From positions 1 to 40,353 of the IMG/VR virus record IMGVR_UViG_3300032579_000940: DNA of 40,353 bases, one strand, 5' to 3'. This document shows, piece after piece, positions 2,963 to 20,496 of this stretch. The DNA is from a virus. A program made the position numbers and the translations under genes. The notes below the pieces were generated by a model. That model saw nothing but the letters and a program-made list of their open reading frames with translations, searched no databases and had not been told where the DNA came from. Within the stretch, counting starts at the first letter, position 1. Each line of letters opens with the position of its first letter.

Positions 2963-3141
2963 TAAAATTCCGATCGAGGCTGTACAGGCGACTGAACGCC
3001 GACCGGATTGTTAATATTTTTTTGTCACACAAAATATCACAAAAGTTACTTATGGGTGCTGACCCTGCCGCGTGCGCTAGAGCGAGAGTGGTTATCAGCA
3101 GGCTCTGTAGATTTATCCACGCAAAAGCGGCGCTCAATTGC

Positions 3142-3231
3142 CTGCCTGCTATAGGCATGGTCGCGACGACCTTAGCGCACGAGATCGCGCGCAACCTTGC
3201 TGCAGCGATAGACAGGTTCCTGTCTCCATAG
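3142..3231 (+). pseudogene. possible scrap of a histidine-kinase dimerisation helix
   Basis: The plus-strand frame reads LPAIGMVATTLAHEIARNL and then AAAIDRF before a stop at 3229-3231. This resembles the H-box of FixL-type sensor kinases, where L-S-A-M-G-x-M-A-S-x-L-A-H-E-L-N-Q-P-L-A-A-I surrounds the phosphorylated His. The Asn-Gln-Pro after the His-Glu is lost and one residue is missing before the Met. No ATP-binding domain follows. If real it is a dead fragment; chance resemblance is possible. Confidence 0.25.
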
Positions 3232-3245
3232 CAGGCTACGGCGCA

Positions 3246-3500
3246 TCACGATCCAGCGCAGCGGGAAATCTTCCACTCTGCCACGAAAGTTACGGTCGCT
3301 ACGTAGACCTCATGTCCGGTCTCATCGCGGACTATTGCCCGGAGCACCCGAGCGCCGCCCGCCGGCATCACCTCCGCCGTCATGGCTCCGAGCGTCCTAT
3401 CCGCTGCGGTTCGCGCATGCGAGGAGTTCTCGAAGCTCTGTTCCGTATCGCCCGGTACGAACGTGCGGCCGTCGTCGGTATCGATGACATAATGGGGCAT
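3246..3500 (-). CDS. DUF6894 family protein
   Basis: An 84-residue protein starting at MPHYVIDTDDG, the position where all family members in this window start; a longer frame upstream lacks the family pattern. It keeps the first strand, the Ala/Thr-rich helix (ARTAADRTLGAM) and the last two strands, AIVRDETGHEVYVATVTF. DUF6894 proteins are small cytoplasmic-looking alpha/beta proteins of unknown function, common in Methylobacterium. This copy is more diverged than those at 7558 and 8009. No operon partner is visible. Confidence 0.75.
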   Translation of the reverse strand: MPHYVIDTDDGRTFVPGDTEQSFENSSHARTAADRTLGAMTAEVMPAGGARVLRAIVRDETGHEVYVATVTFVAEWKISRCAGS

Positions 3501-3788
3501 GCGCGTTCCGTGAGCCTTAGCAACCCGTCCCCAAGGAGCCAACCTGACGCACGCGCCATGGTTCAAACCATCGTCTCGACGTCGCGCCCGGCAAAGGCTT
3601 ACGCATCATGCCCGGAGAGCAGAAGTTGAGTCCCTGCGGGTCACGGATAGGGGCGACACGCCCCAACCCGCGGGGAGCCAACGAGCTGATGCCGTTGGCC
3701 GTCTTGACGTAAAACGTCACGCCTCGCCCACCAGCAGAGGGCGCCTACAAGAAGCAGGCCGTCACAACTATGTTGGGTGGCGTGAGCA

Positions 3789-4025
3789 TCAACTTGACTG
3801 TGGCGATAGCCGTAGAGCGATACGTCGGAGCATGGGCAACGTCTGCCTGAAGGCTGGCAGGTCTCGTTCGATGCCGCATGGATCGGTGATGCGGATATTC
3901 CAGAAGCCCTCAGTCGCCCACCTATCCCCGAGCACCATGGCGCTGTAGGCGTTAAGCCGAGTTGCTTCGCGCAGCCCTAATGTCGATACGGCCGATATCG
4001 TGAAGCGCACAATTTTCTTGATCAT
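3789..4025 (-). CDS. possible hypothetical protein
   Basis: A 78-residue frame starting MIKKIVRFTISAVS, with a mixed, non-repetitive composition and segments such as NAYSAMVLGDRWATEGFWN and ITDPCGIERDL. No family is recognised. The stretch 3501-4111 otherwise holds no gene I can support. The ribosome binding site is weak, and flanking sequence is full of decayed genes, so this may be a remnant. Confidence 0.3.
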   Translation of the reverse strand: MIKKIVRFTISAVSTLGLREATRLNAYSAMVLGDRWATEGFWNIRITDPCGIERDLPAFRQTLPMLRRIALRLSPQSS

Positions 4026-4111
4026 CGTCGACGCTCACGAACAGAAGACGACGAGTAATGCGCCCGATCAACGCGCGTCACAAATCAAAAAATTTCGGCG
4101 CAGATCGCTGG

Positions 4112-4359
4112 TTATGTGGCAGGTGGGATTTTCCACTCGCCTACGAACGTGATGGTGGCAACGTAGACCTCCTGCCCGGCTTCGTCGCGCACGATGGCCT
4201 GAAGGGCACGGTGCTCACCATCCGGCAGGGCACCGTGGGTCATGGACCCGATGACTCGATGGGCTTCCGTCTGGCATTCTTGGGACAGTCGAAGTCGGCC
4301 TCCGGGTCACCCGGTGCGAAGTCGCCAGCGTCATCGGTATCGATCGTTTAGGGCGGCAT
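4112..4359 (-). pseudogene. DUF6894 pseudogene with a nonsense codon and a frameshift
   Basis: Compared with the intact paralogue at 8009-8260, this copy starts ATG CCG CCC and then has TAA where the Tyr codon TAC is expected (codon 4). It continues TIDTDDAGDFAPGDPEADFD in frame. Near codon 31 one base has been lost in the CARTEAHR region, after which the next frame reads through the rest of the family: SMTHGALPDGEHRALQAIV, then EVYVATITFVGEWKIPPAT and a stop. Similarity is otherwise high, so inactivation looks recent relative to the other remnants. Confidence 0.8.
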
Positions 4360-4440
4360 CCCTGGTCAGTCCGGTATGCGGTCGTACAGAATCAACGCGA
4401 TGACCATTGGCGGGTTCGAGTCGGCCGGGTCATCAGGCAC

Positions 4441-4475
4441 GAAAAGGCCCACCGCGGCGCCAAGCCGAGCGGGCC
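4441..4475 (-). repeat. degenerate copy of the terminator-like repeat
   Basis: Sequence GAAAAGGCCCACCGCGGCGC followed by a GCGGGCC arm resembles the hairpin at 8338-8372. The stem is imperfect. As with the copies at 7896 and 8338, it lies about 80 bases upstream of a minus-strand DUF6894 gene (here the pseudogene), so it belongs to the same duplicated unit. Confidence 0.55.
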
Positions 4476-4770
4476 AAGTCGATCCAATGGGAACGGACAT
4501 CTAGGAATGTCCGCATTGCACCCACTATGGTTTGGGCTACAGCTCGATCGCTGCGCTGACACGGACATCGATATGTCATTCACGCGGGCGGCTCCGAAAG
4601 CCCCACCGCGCAAACCGATCGGTGTGCTGCTAGCTCGGCGGGCGCCAATGCTGAGGGGCATGACGGGCGCCTGCCGAGCAGAGACACAACCGGAAGTTGG
4701 GCCCAATCGAGCCGTAGCAGGCACGCCATCTGGAAGACAACCCGGATCCGGATCTATCGACGGACCTCAG

Positions 4771-12741: not shown

Positions 12742-15213
12742 TCAGGCCTCCCCGGCCGAGGGCGAGTTCGCGAAAGCCTGCGCGACGCGGCCGGTGCGGG
12801 CGCCGGCCCCGGCGTTGGCGAGCGCGGCCGACGCCTGATTCCCGACGCTGGTCGCCTTCGCCCCCGCCTGAGCCAGCTTCGCGATCAGACGATCTGCAGC
12901 ACCCTCGGCGGCGGTGATGGACGAGGCGTCCACGTTCGGCGTCACAGTGACGTTCAGACCCTCGACCGCAGCCTTTGCCTCGTCGGCCTTCGGTTTGAGT
13001 GCCTCGACCTGGGAGGTGTCGACCTTCGGCGCGATTGTCTGCCCCGGCCCGAGCGCGTCGTTCATGTCGCCGTAGATGTTCGGCAGGCTGGCCGGCCGGC
13101 GCGGTGGCAGCGGCGTCACGGCGGGCAGCGGCTTGCGGCTCGAGGTGTCGAGCGGGAAGGCCTCGCCGAACGCCGAGCCGAAGCGAGAGCCGCCGCCCTG
13201 GCCGATCGGGCCCGTCTGCCCCTGGATCGGTGCGGTCGGGTCCTGCAGCATGCTCGGCGGGTCCTTCCGGAAGCCCGCGCCCTCCATGTCGAGATCGCCC
13301 TGCGCGCGCTTGGCCGCCGCGAGCGCCGCCCGCTTCGACCGAAGCACGCCGTCGATCTGTTCCTGCGAGCGCCCGGTCTGCCGCATCGTCCGCTCGGTCG
13401 CGGTGATGTCGTCCTCGATCGCCTTGATCTGGCCGGCCTGTTCCTTCTTCCGCTCCGGCAGGGTCTCGGCGAGCTTCTCGCGCGCGGCCTCGGCGGGCAG
13501 GTCCTTCAGGAACTTGCCGACGCCGCGCAGGCCGCCCTTGTTGTAGGCCTCGTTGATGCGCTCGATCGCCTGCGCCGTCGCCTCCAGGCCCTTCGCCACA
13601 CCCTGGATCCGGTCGCTCGTGCCGAACGCCGAATCCATGAACCGCGCCCCGGCCTCACCTGCGCGCTGCAGCGAGTTGCCGAGCCGGTCGAGGGCCGACT
13701 GCGAGTCCTTCGTGACCCGCTCGACGTCCTTCGCAACCGTGCCGGCCGAGGTGGCGCGGATCGTGGCCGAGAGCTTCTGCCACTCGCTGCGGTAAGTCAT
13801 CAGGGCGCGCACGCCGCGACCGAACTCCTGATCGGCGATGAGGTTCGGCAGCTTCGAGAGGTCGCCCTTCAGCGCCTTGTTCGCGGCCTCCTCGAACACC
13901 TCGATCAGGTTGCGACCCTCCTTGCGGCCCTTCTTCATGGCCGCCTCGAGGTCGACACCCATCTTCTTGAAACGCTTGACCGTCTCCTCGCTCTCCATCT
14001 TCTGGAAGATGTTGGTCAGGGAGGTCGCGGCCTCCTCGGACGAGCCCGCGCCCTTCCGGATCACCTGCAGCATGGCGACGATGTCGGAGAGGCCCTGCTG
14101 ACCGGCGAAACCGACCGCCTTCGCGGCCGGCGACAGGCTGGGCAGGTAGCGGGCCATGTCCTTGAGTTCGAACTGCCCGGCCTTGCCGCCCGCCGCCATG
14201 ATGTCGAAGGCGGCCTGCATCTCCTTGCCGGCGATGCCGAAGTTCGACCCGACCGAGTCCGCCGACTTCGCGATGTCGTCGACCTCGGAGCCCGTCGCGG
14301 CGGCGGTGCGCGCCACGGCTGGCAGGAACTCCATGGCCTCACGCAGATTGCGGCCCTGCGCGACGAGCGATTCCAGACCGCCGACGAGGCGATCGACCGG
14401 CGTGGCCGTCTCTTGAGCGAGGTCGTGGACGCTGGCGGCCAGCTTGTCGATCTCCGGCCTGGACGCATCGGCCGTCTGCCCGATCATGGTGATGCGTCGG
14501 TCGAAGGCAGCAGCCTGCTTGTAGGTGGCGGCAGCGGTGTAAGCCGCCGCGCCCGCGCCGAGGAACCGCCCACCGACCAGCCCCAGCCCGCCCGGTACGC
14601 CGCGCCGGCCGGGCGCACCGACTTCATGCGCCTGCGACGCCAGCGCGTCGGCCGCGCGCGCCCGCTTCTCGGCTCGGGTCTGCCGGTCCAGGGCGGTGGC
14701 AGCAGCCTGCGCCTTCGCCGCGACCGACGACTGCGCCGAGGCCAGCGAGGTCATCGGCACCCCGAGGGCCGCCAGCTCGCGACGGAGGCGCTTGGCCGCC
14801 TCGGCCTCCGCCTCGAACGCGCTGGCGGCCGAACGCACCGAGGCGCGGGCGCGGGCCTGCTCCCGCTCCAGCGTCCGCACGGAGCGGGCCGCCTCCTTTT
14901 CGCCAGCCGCCGACAGCTTGCGCGCCGCCTCCAGCTCGCGACTGATCCGCTCCAGATCCTGGCGCGCGCCGTTGAAGGCGGTGCGCGAGGTCCCGAGCGT
15001 CTTCATCCGGCCCTGCAGCTGCGCCAGCTTCTCGGCCTGCGCCTGCGCGTCCTTCAGATCCTTGGTCAGCTTGTCGAGGGCGGGCGTCGCCACGCCCTTG
15101 CCGAGCCGCTTGCCGGCCGCGGCGACGCCATCGAGTGCGCCGGCCATGCCCTTGGCCGGGCCGGAGACGCGGTCGACGAGCTGCGCGATGAGCTGCGCGG
15201 TGCGAGATGCCAT
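12742..15213 (-). CDS. tape measure protein
   Basis: An 823-residue protein that would set tail length and be ejected with the DNA. Residues 1-210 are Ala/Lys/Glu-rich coiled coil. The conserved tape-measure core follows at about 240-500, with AASVHDLAQETATPVDRLVG, KSADSVGSNFGIAGKEMQAA and SLTNIFQKMESEETVKRFKK. The region from 590 to 640 is again charged coil, then comes a Pro-rich linker and a helical end. Compared with P2 gpT (about 815 residues) the length is normal, suggesting a tail of similar length. It follows the tail chaperone frame by nine bases. Confidence 0.9.
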   Translation of the reverse strand: MASRTAQLIAQLVDRVSGPAKGMAGALDGVAAAGKRLGKGVATPALDKLTKDLKDAQAQAEKLAQLQGRMKTLGTSRTAFNGARQDLERISRELEAARKLSAAGEKEAARSVRTLEREQARARASVRSAASAFEAEAEAAKRLRRELAALGVPMTSLASAQSSVAAKAQAAATALDRQTRAEKRARAADALASQAHEVGAPGRRGVPGGLGLVGGRFLGAGAAAYTAAATYKQAAAFDRRITMIGQTADASRPEIDKLAASVHDLAQETATPVDRLVGGLESLVAQGRNLREAMEFLPAVARTAAATGSEVDDIAKSADSVGSNFGIAGKEMQAAFDIMAAGGKAGQFELKDMARYLPSLSPAAKAVGFAGQQGLSDIVAMLQVIRKGAGSSEEAATSLTNIFQKMESEETVKRFKKMGVDLEAAMKKGRKEGRNLIEVFEEAANKALKGDLSKLPNLIADQEFGRGVRALMTYRSEWQKLSATIRATSAGTVAKDVERVTKDSQSALDRLGNSLQRAGEAGARFMDSAFGTSDRIQGVAKGLEATAQAIERINEAYNKGGLRGVGKFLKDLPAEAAREKLAETLPERKKEQAGQIKAIEDDITATERTMRQTGRSQEQIDGVLRSKRAALAAAKRAQGDLDMEGAGFRKDPPSMLQDPTAPIQGQTGPIGQGGGSRFGSAFGEAFPLDTSSRKPLPAVTPLPPRRPASLPNIYGDMNDALGPGQTIAPKVDTSQVEALKPKADEAKAAVEGLNVTVTPNVDASSITAAEGAADRLIAKLAQAGAKATSVGNQASAALANAGAGARTGRVAQAFANSPSAGEA

Positions 15214-15972: not shown

Positions 15973-16503
15973 TCAGATCCCCAGCGCCCGGCGGGTCGGG
16001 GCGAACCAGTCCACCCCGCCCGACCGGGCAATGTTCTCGTCGTCGTCGAAGTAGAACAGCTCCTCGCCGTCGATGATCAGTTCGTAGTGCGTCACCTCCG
16101 CAAAGGTGTGATTGCAGCCCATGAGCTCGCCGGGCGTGTTCTCGTCCGGCTCCCAGGCGTTGACCACGCCCTCGATCGTGGCGCGCGCCGGCACGACACC
16201 GCCCTTCCGGACCCGCATCGAGCCCGCGAAGACCCACCGATCCATCTCGCTGCCGGCGGCGAGGCCGAAGTTCCGGAGCATGTCGAGGTCGGGGCCGTGG
16301 GTGGCATACTTCGGCTCCAGCGCCTCGATCTGCGGGAAGCTGAGGTTGAGCTTGGCGATCGAGCCGCCCGCCAGCATCTCGGAGGTGACGCGGGTGAGCG
16401 CTGGCAGCGCCATCGTCTTGATGATCTTGCTGCGGGTAGTATCGGGCTTCTGGGCGCGGCGGACGTCCACCGCCTCCATGATGTACGGATACTGCGCAGG
16501 CAT
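15973..16503 (-). CDS. P2 FII-like major tail tube protein
   Basis: A 176-residue protein of the contractile phage tube family. MALPALTRVTSEMLAGGSIA is typical of FII, where the tube subunit contacts the sheath. It continues with LNLSFPQIEALEPKYATHGP and ends in the beta-rich region VTHYELIIDGEELFYFDDDE. P2 FII has 172 residues, so the length is as expected. It follows the sheath gene by 50 bases, the usual order FI-FII. Confidence 0.9.
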   Translation of the reverse strand: MPAQYPYIMEAVDVRRAQKPDTTRSKIIKTMALPALTRVTSEMLAGGSIAKLNLSFPQIEALEPKYATHGPDLDMLRNFGLAAGSEMDRWVFAGSMRVRKGGVVPARATIEGVVNAWEPDENTPGELMGCNHTFAEVTHYELIIDGEELFYFDDDENIARSGGVDWFAPTRRALGI

Positions 16504-16553: not shown

Positions 16554-18284
16554 TCAGAGGATGGCGGAGGCGTTGATGCGCGCCGCGATGTCGGCGACGA
16601 GGTCGCTCACGGCCTGGCGGTAGCGGCGCACGTTGCGCTTCGCGACGCGGAAGACCGGCGCCTCCTCGATGCCGAGGTCGGTGGTGAGGCGGCCGGCGCG
16701 CACCTCCTCCGGGCTGTTCTGGTCGGGGAGGAACTCGACCTTGTAGCCGAGGATGTCGTCGGCAGCCTTGTGGTCCCGCAGGTTGAACTTCTGCGAGTTG
16801 ATCCAGGCCTCGGCGTTCGAGGCGCTGATGTTGCGGCCCAGGTACAGGCGGGTGATCCGCATGTGCTCGACGTCGATGATGTCGGCGCCGCGCACCTGAT
16901 GGATCTGCTGCCAGAGGTCGCCGTCCGTGGCGCAGTTGTCGGTGCCGATGAAGACGAAGCCGCCGTCCGCGATGGCCCCGTCGATGTCGACTTCGCCCGA
17001 GACCACGATCGAGACCTCGGCTGCGAGCAGCTGCTGGCCCTCGACCGAGCCGTCGCGCATGTCGAACTCGATGTCGCGCGAGGTGCCGACGAGGCCGTAG
17101 ATCTGCCGGTTGGCGAAGGGCTCGAACGGCTTGCCCGCGTTCTGGAAATCCACCCGGGTGATCAGGCCGAGGATGCGCGGCGCCATGGGGCGGGTGATGA
17201 CCGTGGCGCCGTCCGTGTCGAAGACCCGGGCCGCCACGCCCACGGGCATGATCCGCTCGGAGCCGATGGTCTGGCGGGCCGAGATCGCGCCGTCGCGGCT
17301 CGAATCGTCCACGTCGACCACCGCGATCGCGAGGAGCGCGTTCAGCGTCTCCGGCAGCGCGGCGATCACCGGGTTGGCGAGCACCTCGATGGTGGCGCTC
17401 GCAGCCGCGCCCGTGCCGGCCCCGCCCGTGAAAGCGACGGTCGGCGCGCCCGTGTAGCCCGAGCCGCCGTTCAGGACGTAGACGCTCTCGATGACGCCGG
17501 TCAGCGTCGGCGTGGCGAGCGCGCCCGAGCCCTCGCCGCCCACCAGGGTGATCGCCGGGACCTCGCTCGGGCCGTAGCCGTGGCCCTTGTTGGTGACGGT
17601 GATCGCCGTGACGGCGCCGCCCGAGACCGTCGCGGTCGCCACGGCGCGCGTGCCGCCGCCGGCCGGCGGAGCGACCACCACGGTCGGTGCGGAGGTGTAG
17701 CCGGTCCCGGCCGAATCCACGGCGATCGTGTCGATGCCGCGCGAGATCGTGGCGGCCGCGACCGCCCCGGTGCCGTTGCCGCCGGTCAGGGTGACGCTCG
17801 GCGCGGCGGTGTAGCCGGAGCCGCGGCTGGACGGCGTGATGCGGGTCACGCCCGTGAGGCGCTGGGCGGTGTAGCCCGGCGTGCCGACGAGGCGCGGGGT
17901 GGCCTTGATCTTGGGCGGGGCGGCCTTCAGCGCCTGCAGGCCGACGATGATGTTGGCCATGGTCTGCGCGAGCGAGCCGCCCTCGGCGCAGCGGATCACC
18001 GTGATGTCGGCGGCCTGGCCGCCGGGAGCGACCTGCTGGTTCACGGCGCGCACCGCGTCGGCGAGGTAGCCGGTGCCGAGCTTCGAGGTGAAGGCGACGT
18101 CCGTGGAGGCGAAGCGGACCGCCTTGTAGGAGGTCCGGTCCGCTGCGTAGCCGGCCGGGAACAGCTCGTCGTCCGCCCCCGTCGAGGTCGTGACGAAGGC
18201 GATCTTCGAGAAATCGACGGGGCCGGTTGGCACCGGCTCGTCGGAGAAGCGCTGGTCGATGGTGCCGAAAGTCGGGCTGGCCAT
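16554..18284 (-). CDS. tail sheath protein (P2 FI-like) with a four-repeat insertion
   Basis: A 576-residue contractile tail sheath protein. Start ATG 18284 gives MASPTFGTIDQRFSDEP. N-terminal core: RAVNQQVAPGGQAADITVIR and NIIVGLQALKA. The conserved sheath segment KATPRLVGTPGYTAQ is interrupted at about residue 142. The usual continuation (NPVIAALPETLNALLAIAVV) resumes only near residue 304. Between them lie four 38-40 residue Gly-rich repeats. The C-terminal core is standard (DNCATDGDLWQQIHQVRGAD, then ITRLYLGRNISASNAEAWIN). P2 FI has about 396 residues; the excess is largely the insertion. It is probably displayed on the outside of the sheath. Confidence 0.9.
   Translation of the reverse strand: MASPTFGTIDQRFSDEPVPTGPVDFSKIAFVTTSTGADDELFPAGYAADRTSYKAVRFASTDVAFTSKLGTGYLADAVRAVNQQVAPGGQAADITVIRCAEGGSLAQTMANIIVGLQALKAAPPKIKATPRLVGTPGYTAQRLTGVTRITPSSRGSGYTAAPSVTLTGGNGTGAVAAATISRGIDTIAVDSAGTGYTSAPTVVVAPPAGGGTRAVATATVSGGAVTAITVTNKGHGYGPSEVPAITLVGGEGSGALATPTLTGVIESVYVLNGGSGYTGAPTVAFTGGAGTGAAASATIEVLANPVIAALPETLNALLAIAVVDVDDSSRDGAISARQTIGSERIMPVGVAARVFDTDGATVITRPMAPRILGLITRVDFQNAGKPFEPFANRQIYGLVGTSRDIEFDMRDGSVEGQQLLAAEVSIVVSGEVDIDGAIADGGFVFIGTDNCATDGDLWQQIHQVRGADIIDVEHMRITRLYLGRNISASNAEAWINSQKFNLRDHKAADDILGYKVEFLPDQNSPEEVRAGRLTTDLGIEEAPVFRVAKRNVRRYRQAVSDLVADIAARINASAIL
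17381..17861 (-). repeat. four tandem Gly-rich repeats inside the sheath gene
   Basis: Each repeat follows G-x-G-Y-x-x-A-P-x-V followed by x-x-G-G-x-G-x-G-A-x-A-x-A-T-[IV]. Examples are GSGYTAAPSVTLTGGNGTGA, GTGYTSAPTVVV, GHGYGPSEVPAITLVGGEGS and GSGYTGAPTVAFTGGAGTGA, at sheath residues about 155, 193, 234 and 274. Similar GY-AP-V repeats occur in beta-rich surface proteins of other phages. The third copy carries two extra residues. Confidence 0.85.
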
Positions 18285-18379
18285 GGGTGGTGTCTCCACG
18301 CTGAGAGGCCCCACCGGCGACCGGCAGGGTGAAGGGTGGCCCGGAGGCCGGTTTCAGGAATGGGTGAGGGGCAGGCGGC

Positions 18380-18853
18380 TCAGAGGCGGCGCGCGGCGCG
18401 CTGGAACTTGTCGTCGAGGTCGGCCTCGGTCAGGTCGAGTTCGAGGCAGATGCCCATGACGTAGGGATTGAAGCGCTCCCAGGTGTTGGCGCGCGCGAAC
18501 CAGATCTGCACCGCCTTTGGCATGGCCCCAACGATCGCCTCGACTCGGTTGAGCAGCCCATCCTCGTCGAGGACAAGGCACGCCTGCGCCGAGGATACAG
18601 AGACGGGCGCAGGCTCGACGTGAGCCGGCCGGTCGTCGAGCCGCCACGCGCAGGCCACCTCATCCCAGGCGAGCACCTGCGTCGAGGCATCGAACGAGGG
18701 CCGCACCGGGGCGATCGTGAAGCCCCAGGCGGCCAATTCCTCGGCCGTGAAGGTTGAGGGATCGGTGCGCGTCATGCCGTCCGGGAGCATCACCCGGAAC
18801 GGGAGCGGCGCCGGGTAGGACCAAACGCCGCCGGCATTTTGGGTGTGTTCCAT
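18380..18853 (-). CDS. tail fibre assembly-like protein
   Basis: A 157-residue protein. The N-terminal 70 residues carry a fibre-assembly-type pattern (DGMTRTDPSTFTAEELAAWG and VLAWDEVACAW, where the input sequence is compared with W-x-V). The C-terminal half has AMPKAVQIWFARANTWERFN, then LGLTEAD-like helices (CLELDLTEADLDDKF). It follows the propeller-like fibre gene by six bases. Proteins in this place usually help fold or mount the fibre. The family call is moderate. Confidence 0.55.
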   Translation of the reverse strand: MEHTQNAGGVWSYPAPLPFRVMLPDGMTRTDPSTFTAEELAAWGFTIAPVRPSFDASTQVLAWDEVACAWRLDDRPAHVEPAPVSVSSAQACLVLDEDGLLNRVEAIVGAMPKAVQIWFARANTWERFNPYVMGICLELDLTEADLDDKFQRAARRL

Positions 18854-18859
18854 CGCCCC

Positions 18860-20167
18860 TCACACGTTCGCCGCATTTTCGGTCGCTCTCAGGATGAGAG
18901 CGTTGCTTGTCCATGCGTTCGGGCTTGCCCGTCCGAGGCCCAGCAGTTTCGGGGTCGCGACGCTGCTATGCATGAACCCGACTGGTCCGCTGATCGTTGG
19001 CTGTTGCAGGTCGATCAGCACACGCTTGGTAAAGCTGTCGTCTGAATACTTGTAGGCGACGATCTGGCCCGCCTTGGTGCAGGCAATGATTTCCGTATCC
19101 GTGCAGGCGAATGCCGTGAACGTCACGGTTGGGTCGATCGCGACGAACGACGCGGAGTTGCCGCTGGTCCCGGCCCAAGTCCCGAGGCCATTCGTGCGAT
19201 AGTGATACAGCTTGCGGTCGCCATCACTCCGCGAACCCTCGTCAACGAAGACGTATTGCCCGTCGAAGGACCATTGCGGATTGAATATCTGCCGATCGGA
19301 TGCGCCGCTGATGCCAGGTGTCGCGGTGCGCGCGGTCCCGGTTCGAGCGTCCAGGTTGACGCCGCCCACAGCCATTACGCAGTAGTTCGCGGAACCCTTG
19401 TTGCCCCACGTAAAGACGCCCCGCTTGTTCGGCGAGAGCAGCATGTTGAATTGGTTCCCGTTGCCGTACCAATCCCCGCCGCCATAGAAACTTTCTTCAC
19501 TGCCGGCACCCCAGGACAGTGTTTGCGGTGTCAAGATGCCCGTCGCGGGGTTGCGCGTCGAAAATTGCGAGCGCCGACTGTCCGTGCCGAATCCGTAAAT
19601 ATACTGACCGTCCGAAGACCAATTCATGCGGGGAACGGCCCACAGTCCACCGTTGAGATAGCCTCGACCTTGTGTTCTCGGCGTTCCGCTACTGAACGCC
19701 GACCTTGGGTTCGACAAGCTAAAACCGTCGCAGTCATAGACTAGGCAGTCGCCTCCGGCGGCGTAGTTCATGAAATGAACGTAAAAGTGAATACCGTCCG
19801 GAGATAACCCGTAATTGTAGATCGAGCTTCGGATATAGTTAGTCCCGTCAAACGCGGCCGACGCGACCGTAATAGGAGCCGCCCCGTTCAGAGAGTACGC
19901 GAGGACCGGGCTGGATTGGGCGGTTGCGTAGCTCTCTATCGCCCCGACAAGAACGACAAGCCGTCCGTTCGGATGGGGCACGGGCACAAGCCCGAGTTGG
20001 GCCGAAGGGGCAGGCGACGGCGCCGGGATCGCCAACCGCTTCGCAAGGTTCGGCTGGTGCCACGCGCTGCCCTTCTGAAGCGCGCAGACGTCCCCCAGGG
20101 AAAACACGCCGTTGGCCTTGCCGGACGTGAACGAGGCTTGTTTGTTCCCGATCAGGCCATAGGGCAT
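18860..20167 (-). CDS. beta-propeller-like receptor-binding candidate
   Basis: A 435-residue protein whose ATG (20167) overlaps the previous stop as TGATG. The N-terminal 50 residues, including FSLGDVCALQKGSAWHQPNL, resemble attachment segments of phage fibres. The rest is beta-rich with recurring TolB/WD-like blades: LSPDGIHFYVHF (about 121), WSSDGQYIYGFG (about 183), LLSPNKRGVFTWG (about 243) and WSFDGQYVFVDE (about 299). Base composition is lower in GC than the tail genes around it, as expected for an exchanged host-range module. Receptor binding is inferred from place and fold. Confidence 0.6.
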   Translation of the reverse strand: MPYGLIGNKQASFTSGKANGVFSLGDVCALQKGSAWHQPNLAKRLAIPAPSPAPSAQLGLVPVPHPNGRLVVLVGAIESYATAQSSPVLAYSLNGAAPITVASAAFDGTNYIRSSIYNYGLSPDGIHFYVHFMNYAAGGDCLVYDCDGFSLSNPRSAFSSGTPRTQGRGYLNGGLWAVPRMNWSSDGQYIYGFGTDSRRSQFSTRNPATGILTPQTLSWGAGSEESFYGGGDWYGNGNQFNMLLSPNKRGVFTWGNKGSANYCVMAVGGVNLDARTGTARTATPGISGASDRQIFNPQWSFDGQYVFVDEGSRSDGDRKLYHYRTNGLGTWAGTSGNSASFVAIDPTVTFTAFACTDTEIIACTKAGQIVAYKYSDDSFTKRVLIDLQQPTISGPVGFMHSSVATPKLLGLGRASPNAWTSNALILRATENAANV

Positions 20168-20496
20168 CAGGTAATCTCCACAACCGAGAGGGTCGCCTGC
20201 GCCGCGTTGTTGGCCGACGCGACGATCTGGATCGCGTCGCCCGGTTCCAGAATGAGGATTTTGGCAATGTGGTTGGCCGCCGCGCCTGGCGGAACCGTCA
20301 GAACCTTGGCGAGGCGCGTGGCCTTGTTCGCCGCGCTCGCGTCGAGCCACTGGCTCGTCGTATCGACGTCAACGGTGCCGTCCGTATTCGCGACCTGTGC
20401 CGCCAGGACAAGCGCGATCGTATTGGCCGGGCAAGTGTAGGCGGTTTGGAGAGCCGTCGTCAGGTCGAGCGAAACGGGCTTGAACTTGGTCGCCAT
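20167..20496 (-). CDS. small beta-rich phage structural protein
   Basis: A 109-residue protein: MATKFKPVSLDLTTALQTAY, then IALVLAAQVANTDGTVDVD and a C-terminal EPGDAIQIVASANNAAQATL. The alternating Val/Ala/Thr pattern suggests a beta sandwich, like small phage head-fibre or tail-decoration proteins. It lies between two fibre-like genes with 0-3 base gaps. No family name can be given. Confidence 0.5.
   Translation of the reverse strand: MATKFKPVSLDLTTALQTAYTCPANTIALVLAAQVANTDGTVDVDTTSQWLDASAANKATRLAKVLTVPPGAAANHIAKILILEPGDAIQIVASANNAAQATLSVVEIT

Follow-up and report, generated by a model that had tools for sequence, protein, structure and literature searches.

A phage contractile tail sheath with an inserted GY-repeat domain: a probable optional tail decoration of a known kind

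Why should the sheath protein of a contractile tail be interrupted by a tandem repeat array, and does such an array set this tail apart? The question is raised by a viral record of 40,353 nucleotides (IMGVR_UViG_3300032579_000940), which we refer to as the window. According to the original prediction, the sheath core encoded in the window is interrupted, between a strand and a helix that are normally close, by four glycine-rich repeats, an array regarded as unusual that would decorate every subunit along the tail and could serve in adhesion or immune masking. The features on which the analysis rests are these:

12742..15213, minus strand: tape measure protein gene (PF10145 and phrog_34270)
15973..16503, minus strand: tail tube gene adjoining the sheath gene (PF04985 Phage_tube, E 1.2e-20)
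16554..18314, minus strand: contractile tail sheath gene of the FI / R2-pyocin type (phrog_23; model match to R2 pyocin 3j9r; tail tube gene next to it)
16557..17375, minus strand: C-terminal part of the sheath core, starting NPVIAALPET... (84-90% identity to close relatives, insert-bearing or not)
17376..17861, minus strand: inserted GY-repeat domain, 162 aa, predicted all-beta (missing in L008-L018, L099 and L101-L105; present in L100)
17379..17495, minus strand: repeat 4 (best match is the second repeat of two-repeat domains)
17496..17618, minus strand: repeat 3 (belongs to the additional pair in the middle)
17619..17735, minus strand: repeat 2 (belongs to the additional pair in the middle)
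17736..17855, minus strand: repeat 1 (best match is the first repeat of two-repeat domains)
17862..18284, minus strand: N-terminal part of the sheath core, ending ...PRLVGTPGYTAQ (placed by alignment to empty-site relatives and the R2 pyocin sheath)

Profile, fold and gene order all assign this gene to the contractile tail sheath family (FI / phrog_23). The phrog_23 tail sheath profile covers residues 16-572 of the protein at E 2e-34, the predicted structure superimposes on the R2 pyocin sheath 3j9r with a Z-score of 40.3 over 368 aligned residues, and the sheath gene is followed by the tail tube and then the tape measure gene. The protein is encoded by a single ORF, 586 aa long if counted from a GTG; the true start is probably the ATG at 18284 ('MASPTFG'), which gives 576 aa. 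Since the record contains just one sheath gene, every sheath subunit carries the repeats, as had been supposed. DUF1421 as the sole Pfam match of the protein, and likewise its sole NCBIfam match, were judged spurious. Directly upstream of the sheath gene and a small gene at 18380-18853 lies an ORF of 496 aa (18860-20350, minus strand), for which comparison with Pfam and PHROG returned no match. The host is probably Methylobacterium; we infer this attribution of the phage from its nearest relatives with named sources, which are Methylobacterium genomes.

The insert lies in frame in the loop after PRLVGTPGYT, the one following the first strand of the conserved alpha/beta domain (PF04984, 'subtilisin-like'), and is flanked by '...ATPRLVGTPGYTAQ' and 'NPVIAALPETLNALLAIAVVDV'. 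Its predicted position was good overall, but the domain spans 17376-17861 (residues 142-303 of the 576-aa form) rather than 17381-17861, and its four glycine-rich GxGY units, correctly recognized, are 38-41 rather than 38-40 residues long. The repeats are genuine: unit-versus-unit alignment scores lie 5 to 12.8 standard deviations above those of shuffled units for all pairs, and every pair exceeds the maximum of 500 shuffles. The insert thus represents a GY-repeat virion module, that is, a tandem G-x-GY-x-x-AP-x-V array with a period of about 40 aa that matches the array profile. With this profile, built from 46 GY arrays (that of the window among them), the sheath was the single gene matched in the window (E 2.6e-53). 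No Pfam family, Ig-like ones included, matched the insert at a meaningful score, which is still compatible with a distant Ig-like relation, and no ligand-binding or carbohydrate-binding family was detected.

The clearest view of the interruption comes from sheaths without it. In the R2 pyocin sheath (PA0622; PDB 3J9Q/3J9R), which has the same core as the window sheath, both flanking core segments are matched with few residues between them. A profile of 48 sheaths aligned to the R2 pyocin chain (E 5e-118) in two stretches, omitting just the repeat domain. Flanks are similarly almost adjacent in the closest relatives, in full agreement with the notion of a core split between a normally close strand and helix. 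None of the 11 relatives that the viral contigs yielded first, with C-terminal parts 59-90% identical to that of the window, has the insert, and neither do the six genome-contig loci other than L100. L009, one of the 11, reaches 90% identity to the window in the C-terminal part but has 11 bases at the site where the window has 479. Window and L009 offer a pair of nearly identical sheaths differing by one clean in-frame domain, which makes the role of extra sheath domains, be it adhesion, stability or none at all, directly testable through deletion or comparison. L100, from a Methylobacterium genome, has the same four repeats at 78% overall identity to the window. A sequencing or assembly artefact is ruled out, as the same array occurs in this independent genome and is under constraint. 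Related sheaths were found in nine of 111 Methylobacterium genomes; one of the nine has GY repeats, one (L114) a different domain and the rest a short loop, either read directly in the sequence or inferred from abutting matches. In L114 (positions 763-2319, a prophage-like sheath), an unrelated domain ('...FSVVDPDGTVLADATVGTAYTGVVKFTIADGATDFVVDDGFDLTV...') fills the loop that holds the GY repeats in the window. A motif rule had labelled it as a GY domain for the tree; the label was dropped once the sequence had revealed a different domain.

In the wider sheath family, GY repeats at this site turned out to be common. Among 103 distinct sheaths surveyed at the same site, they are recognizable in at least 62, with two motifs in 51 sheaths, one in five, and three or four in six (the window, L100, KA2-1, L134, L136 and L156). 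A further four of the 103 have a similar domain at the same loop without the strict motif, and 32 have fewer than 25 aa at the insertion loop. A scan with Jilinvirus-type sheaths gave 80 loci; as its query carried the repeats, the counts should not be read as unbiased frequencies. They nevertheless show that a GY-bearing sheath is not an unusual kind, contrary to what had been assumed, and that a two-repeat module fills this loop across a large sheath lineage. Comparing sheaths with and without the insertion, as the original prediction had proposed, gave a two-sided answer: the domain is absent in the closest relatives of the window but common in the wider lineage. It is a normal part of more distant relatives, which might have pointed to a buried component of the sheath fold; its absence in the closest relatives and in the functional R2 pyocin sheath rules out a required buried element.

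Some of these sheaths have been modelled before. Enterobacter phage Arya (Jilinvirus, 477 aa) has a sheath of the same family with a GY domain in the same loop, as read directly from its sequence; it has two repeats as opposed to four in the window, and the Jilinvirus core is only about 35% identical to that of the window. The sheath of Escherichia phage vB_EcoM-ep3 (Jilinvirus, 475 aa) was matched by tblastn only, and the coliphage ECO1230-10 (L007), a genus-mate of ep3, has the GY domain. Both Arya and ep3 sheaths were modelled in 2022 as two-domain 'type 2' sheaths (PMC9230969), defined as sheaths of 426-713 aa in which a main domain is accompanied by a single further domain, mainly of beta structure (PMC9230969). 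The window sheath, with its 576-586 aa, complete core and single 162-aa insert modelled as all-beta, matches this type in length and make-up. The window thus adds a member to a known class of optional, probably decorative, tail domains and does not found a new one. Since repeats 1 and 4 best match the first and second repeat of two-repeat domains, respectively, the middle pair (repeats 2-3) looks to have been added to the two-repeat form. Four GY repeats at the same site are also present in the sheath of Klebsiella phage KA2-1 (PQ571296), which is 91% identical to the two-repeat Arya sheath. On the tree, KA2-1 clusters with Arya at a great distance from the window; it probably went from two to four repeats separately from the window. 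In our literature search we found no papers naming GY repeats in sheaths and no experimental data on GY-bearing sheaths of the window's lineage.

How did the domain come to be present in the window sheath and missing in its nearest relatives? We built an unrooted tree of 69 sheath cores with the insert columns removed, excluding L114 before presence/absence changes were counted. At least six such changes are required. A single clade of the window and L100 is not rejected (AU p 0.81). For the two neighbouring genes of the window, tube and tape measure, the nearest counterparts are those of the insert-less L009 and L104 (88% and 86%), whereas L100, which has the insert, shows 77% identity to the window in the tube and a largely unrelated tape measure. 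Taken together, these sequence comparisons indicate that the domain comes and goes independently of the neighbouring genes. Between the window and L100, the inserts are 66% identical (dN/dS 0.40), compared with 77% (dN/dS 0.39) for the N-terminal and 87% (dN/dS 0.20) for the C-terminal core part. Judged by these values, the insert is variable and faster-evolving than the C-terminal core, yet constrained.

The domain is optional, length-variable, exchangeable, constrained and predicted to be all-beta, and many sheaths leave the same loop empty. We lean towards the view that a permissive loop of an R2-pyocin/FI-type sheath here accommodates a surface domain that is optional, dispensable and exchangeable, faces outwards and serves as a decoration with weak binding. 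According to this scheme, the insert would point outwards from every sheath subunit, and the repeats would line the tail as an array that plays no part in contraction. Less certainly, the array might bind weakly but at many points to the surface of the host or to its extracellular polymers, and the domain might be gained, lost, lengthened or swapped for other domains as hosts change. The outward orientation at the window loop, which differs from the loop bearing domain I in T4 gp18, is inferred by analogy from several observations. The N- and C-terminal handshake arms and the C-terminal domain are uninterrupted, and the insert resembles gp18 domain I (see below). In the R2 pyocin, the connecting arms comprise residues 2-24 and 361-386 (PMC8195476); the insertion site, near residue 138, is far from them in sequence. 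Additional sheath domains elsewhere sit away from the tail tube (PMC9230969), and the less conserved ones are nested insertions, without which sheaths still assemble (PMC6088184). A comparable case is the sheath of Vibrio phage XM1, where, as in the window, an extra domain is found in the alpha/beta domain of a small-phage sheath (PMC10457771), although that domain reportedly resembles the flagellar cap FliD D3 and not GY repeats (PMC10457771). As to the proposed functions, adhesion by the repeats may be entertained as a hypothesis by analogy, and immune masking was set aside as unsupported.

For extra sheath domains as a whole, both adhesion and stabilization have been suggested (PMC9230969). 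The repeats might alternatively act as a clamp, touching those of neighbouring subunits on the outside and holding the extended or contracted sheath without any host binding. Such a role has been put forward (PMC9230969) for the additional sheath domains of phages such as Staphylococcus phage 812, and it would predict what is seen for the two-repeat form, namely its retention across a large lineage. On the other hand, close relatives with near-identical cores lack the insert, the R2 pyocin sheath functions without it, and a repeat number ranging from 0 to 4 is hard to square with fixed contacts. We regard the clamp as unlikely, and weak multivalent binding to the host surface as a more likely putative role than sheath stabilization. 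Another thought is that GY repeats are a neutral or selfish module, spread among virion genes by recombination and tolerated in exposed loops without any benefit. The same repeats do occur in head, connector, baseplate and fibre proteins, and within sheaths they occupy several sites with a patchy presence. Yet the dN/dS of 0.40 between the window and L100 inserts signifies constraint, some 160 residues in each of many sheath copies would be costly, and the domain persists throughout a large lineage, all of which makes a useless passenger quite improbable.

The remaining alternative concerns origin and fits any function: the domain may be ancestral to the sheath lineage, kept in the window and lost in its nearest relatives. 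Mae-JY30, which falls outside the 21-row clade of the window but on its side of the tree, has the two-repeat form at the same site, and the window-L100 clade is compatible with the data, as the AU test indicates. However, all 19 other members of the 21-row clade are without the insert, so that several losses would be needed, and gain and loss are inseparable on a tree without a root. We consider an ancestral origin possible but somewhat doubtful.

The preferred reading, an exchangeable outward-facing domain, leans in part on the predicted fold. Since two repeats are the rule among the aligned relatives, repeats 2-3 came out poorly in the full-length sheath model (pLDDT <50), and the insert was therefore folded alone; AF2 then produced an all-beta domain with a pLDDT of 95.5. 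The repeat profile matched no solved structure by sequence at E 0.01, and Foldseek of the insert against PDB gave nothing under E 0.3. With a second aligner, the best PDB match was T4 gp18 residues 99-187 (Z 6.4 and 6.2; rmsd 3.0-3.2 across 75-76 aa), the next match having a Z of 3.1; Z-scores below 8 can arise by chance, and 6.4 on its own is in the range reachable by unrelated models. The matched region is essentially gp18 domain I (residues 98-188), in which six strands form a beta-barrel accompanied by one helix, and which is more exposed than the other three domains of gp18 (PMC8570332). Like the insert, it is an inserted beta domain of a sheath, and in gp18 it is the outermost one; it differs in having a barrel plus helix and no clear GxGY motifs, and in occupying another core loop, directly after Gp18_domIII_N.

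Sequence profiles point weakly in the same direction. A domain I profile from ten T4-like phage sequences aligned with the two-repeat profile in hhalign at E 0.004, a weak score but in register (GSNYxVGD with GSGYTxAP, then DGKI with GxVT), compared with E 0.67-0.96 for three control regions. When a domain I HMM was run against 2289 ORFs and an equal number of reversed decoys, its best matches, mostly GY proteins, outranked all decoys, although they were themselves weak (E 0.02-0.7 at best). The top match, the RHph_N34 sheath, combines a T4-like 'GTNYTIGD' with a canonical 'SNGTGY' repeat. The structure match, the hhalign result and the HMM ranking together suggest that gp18 domain I may be a diverged GY pair. 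For the broader proposition, that domain I is such a pair and that one beta module placed at several sheath sites serves contractile tails in general as an interchangeable decoration, present also on heads, connectors and baseplates, we see the case as evenly balanced. If the domain I link holds, it would explain where the outermost domain of a textbook contractile tail came from.

The repeats also occur well beyond the sheath. A search of viral contigs with the insert alone gave more than 450 relatives, and few of the 80 kept match the sheath core. PHROG matches and predicted viral structures place GY repeats in head, connector, baseplate and fibre proteins. Within the window insert, matches were obtained to phrog_701, phrog_19630, phrog_460 and others; these families, along with 5342, 708 and others, share the same repeat unit and are mostly virion proteins other than the sheath. 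Where the window sheath matches PHROG families of head closure, baseplate wedge and tail fibre proteins, it does so through the repeats only. Thus phrog_460 ('head closure'), phrog_708 ('baseplate wedge') and others amount to a trap in the automatic annotation of GY-bearing proteins.

In sheaths, too, GY repeats are not confined to the loop used in the window. The sheath of L147 (positions 3001-4755) has its main site empty, but after 'GTAPDS' it carries a further inserted domain within which a GY pair is nested; L194 and L195 seemingly have this outer domain without the repeats. In the T4-like sheath L098, GY repeats are found at the gp18 domain I site, directly after Gp18_domIII_N. The same holds for the T4-type sheaths of Agrobacterium phage Atu_ph04 (L207) and Rhizobium phage RHph_N34 (L219, positions 101-2584), whose sequences at this site look intermediate between T4 domain I and GY repeats. 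Finally, the T4-type sheath of Xanthomonas phage X1 (L203) has a GY pair at residues 238-318, considerably further downstream than the domain I site, perhaps within domain II.
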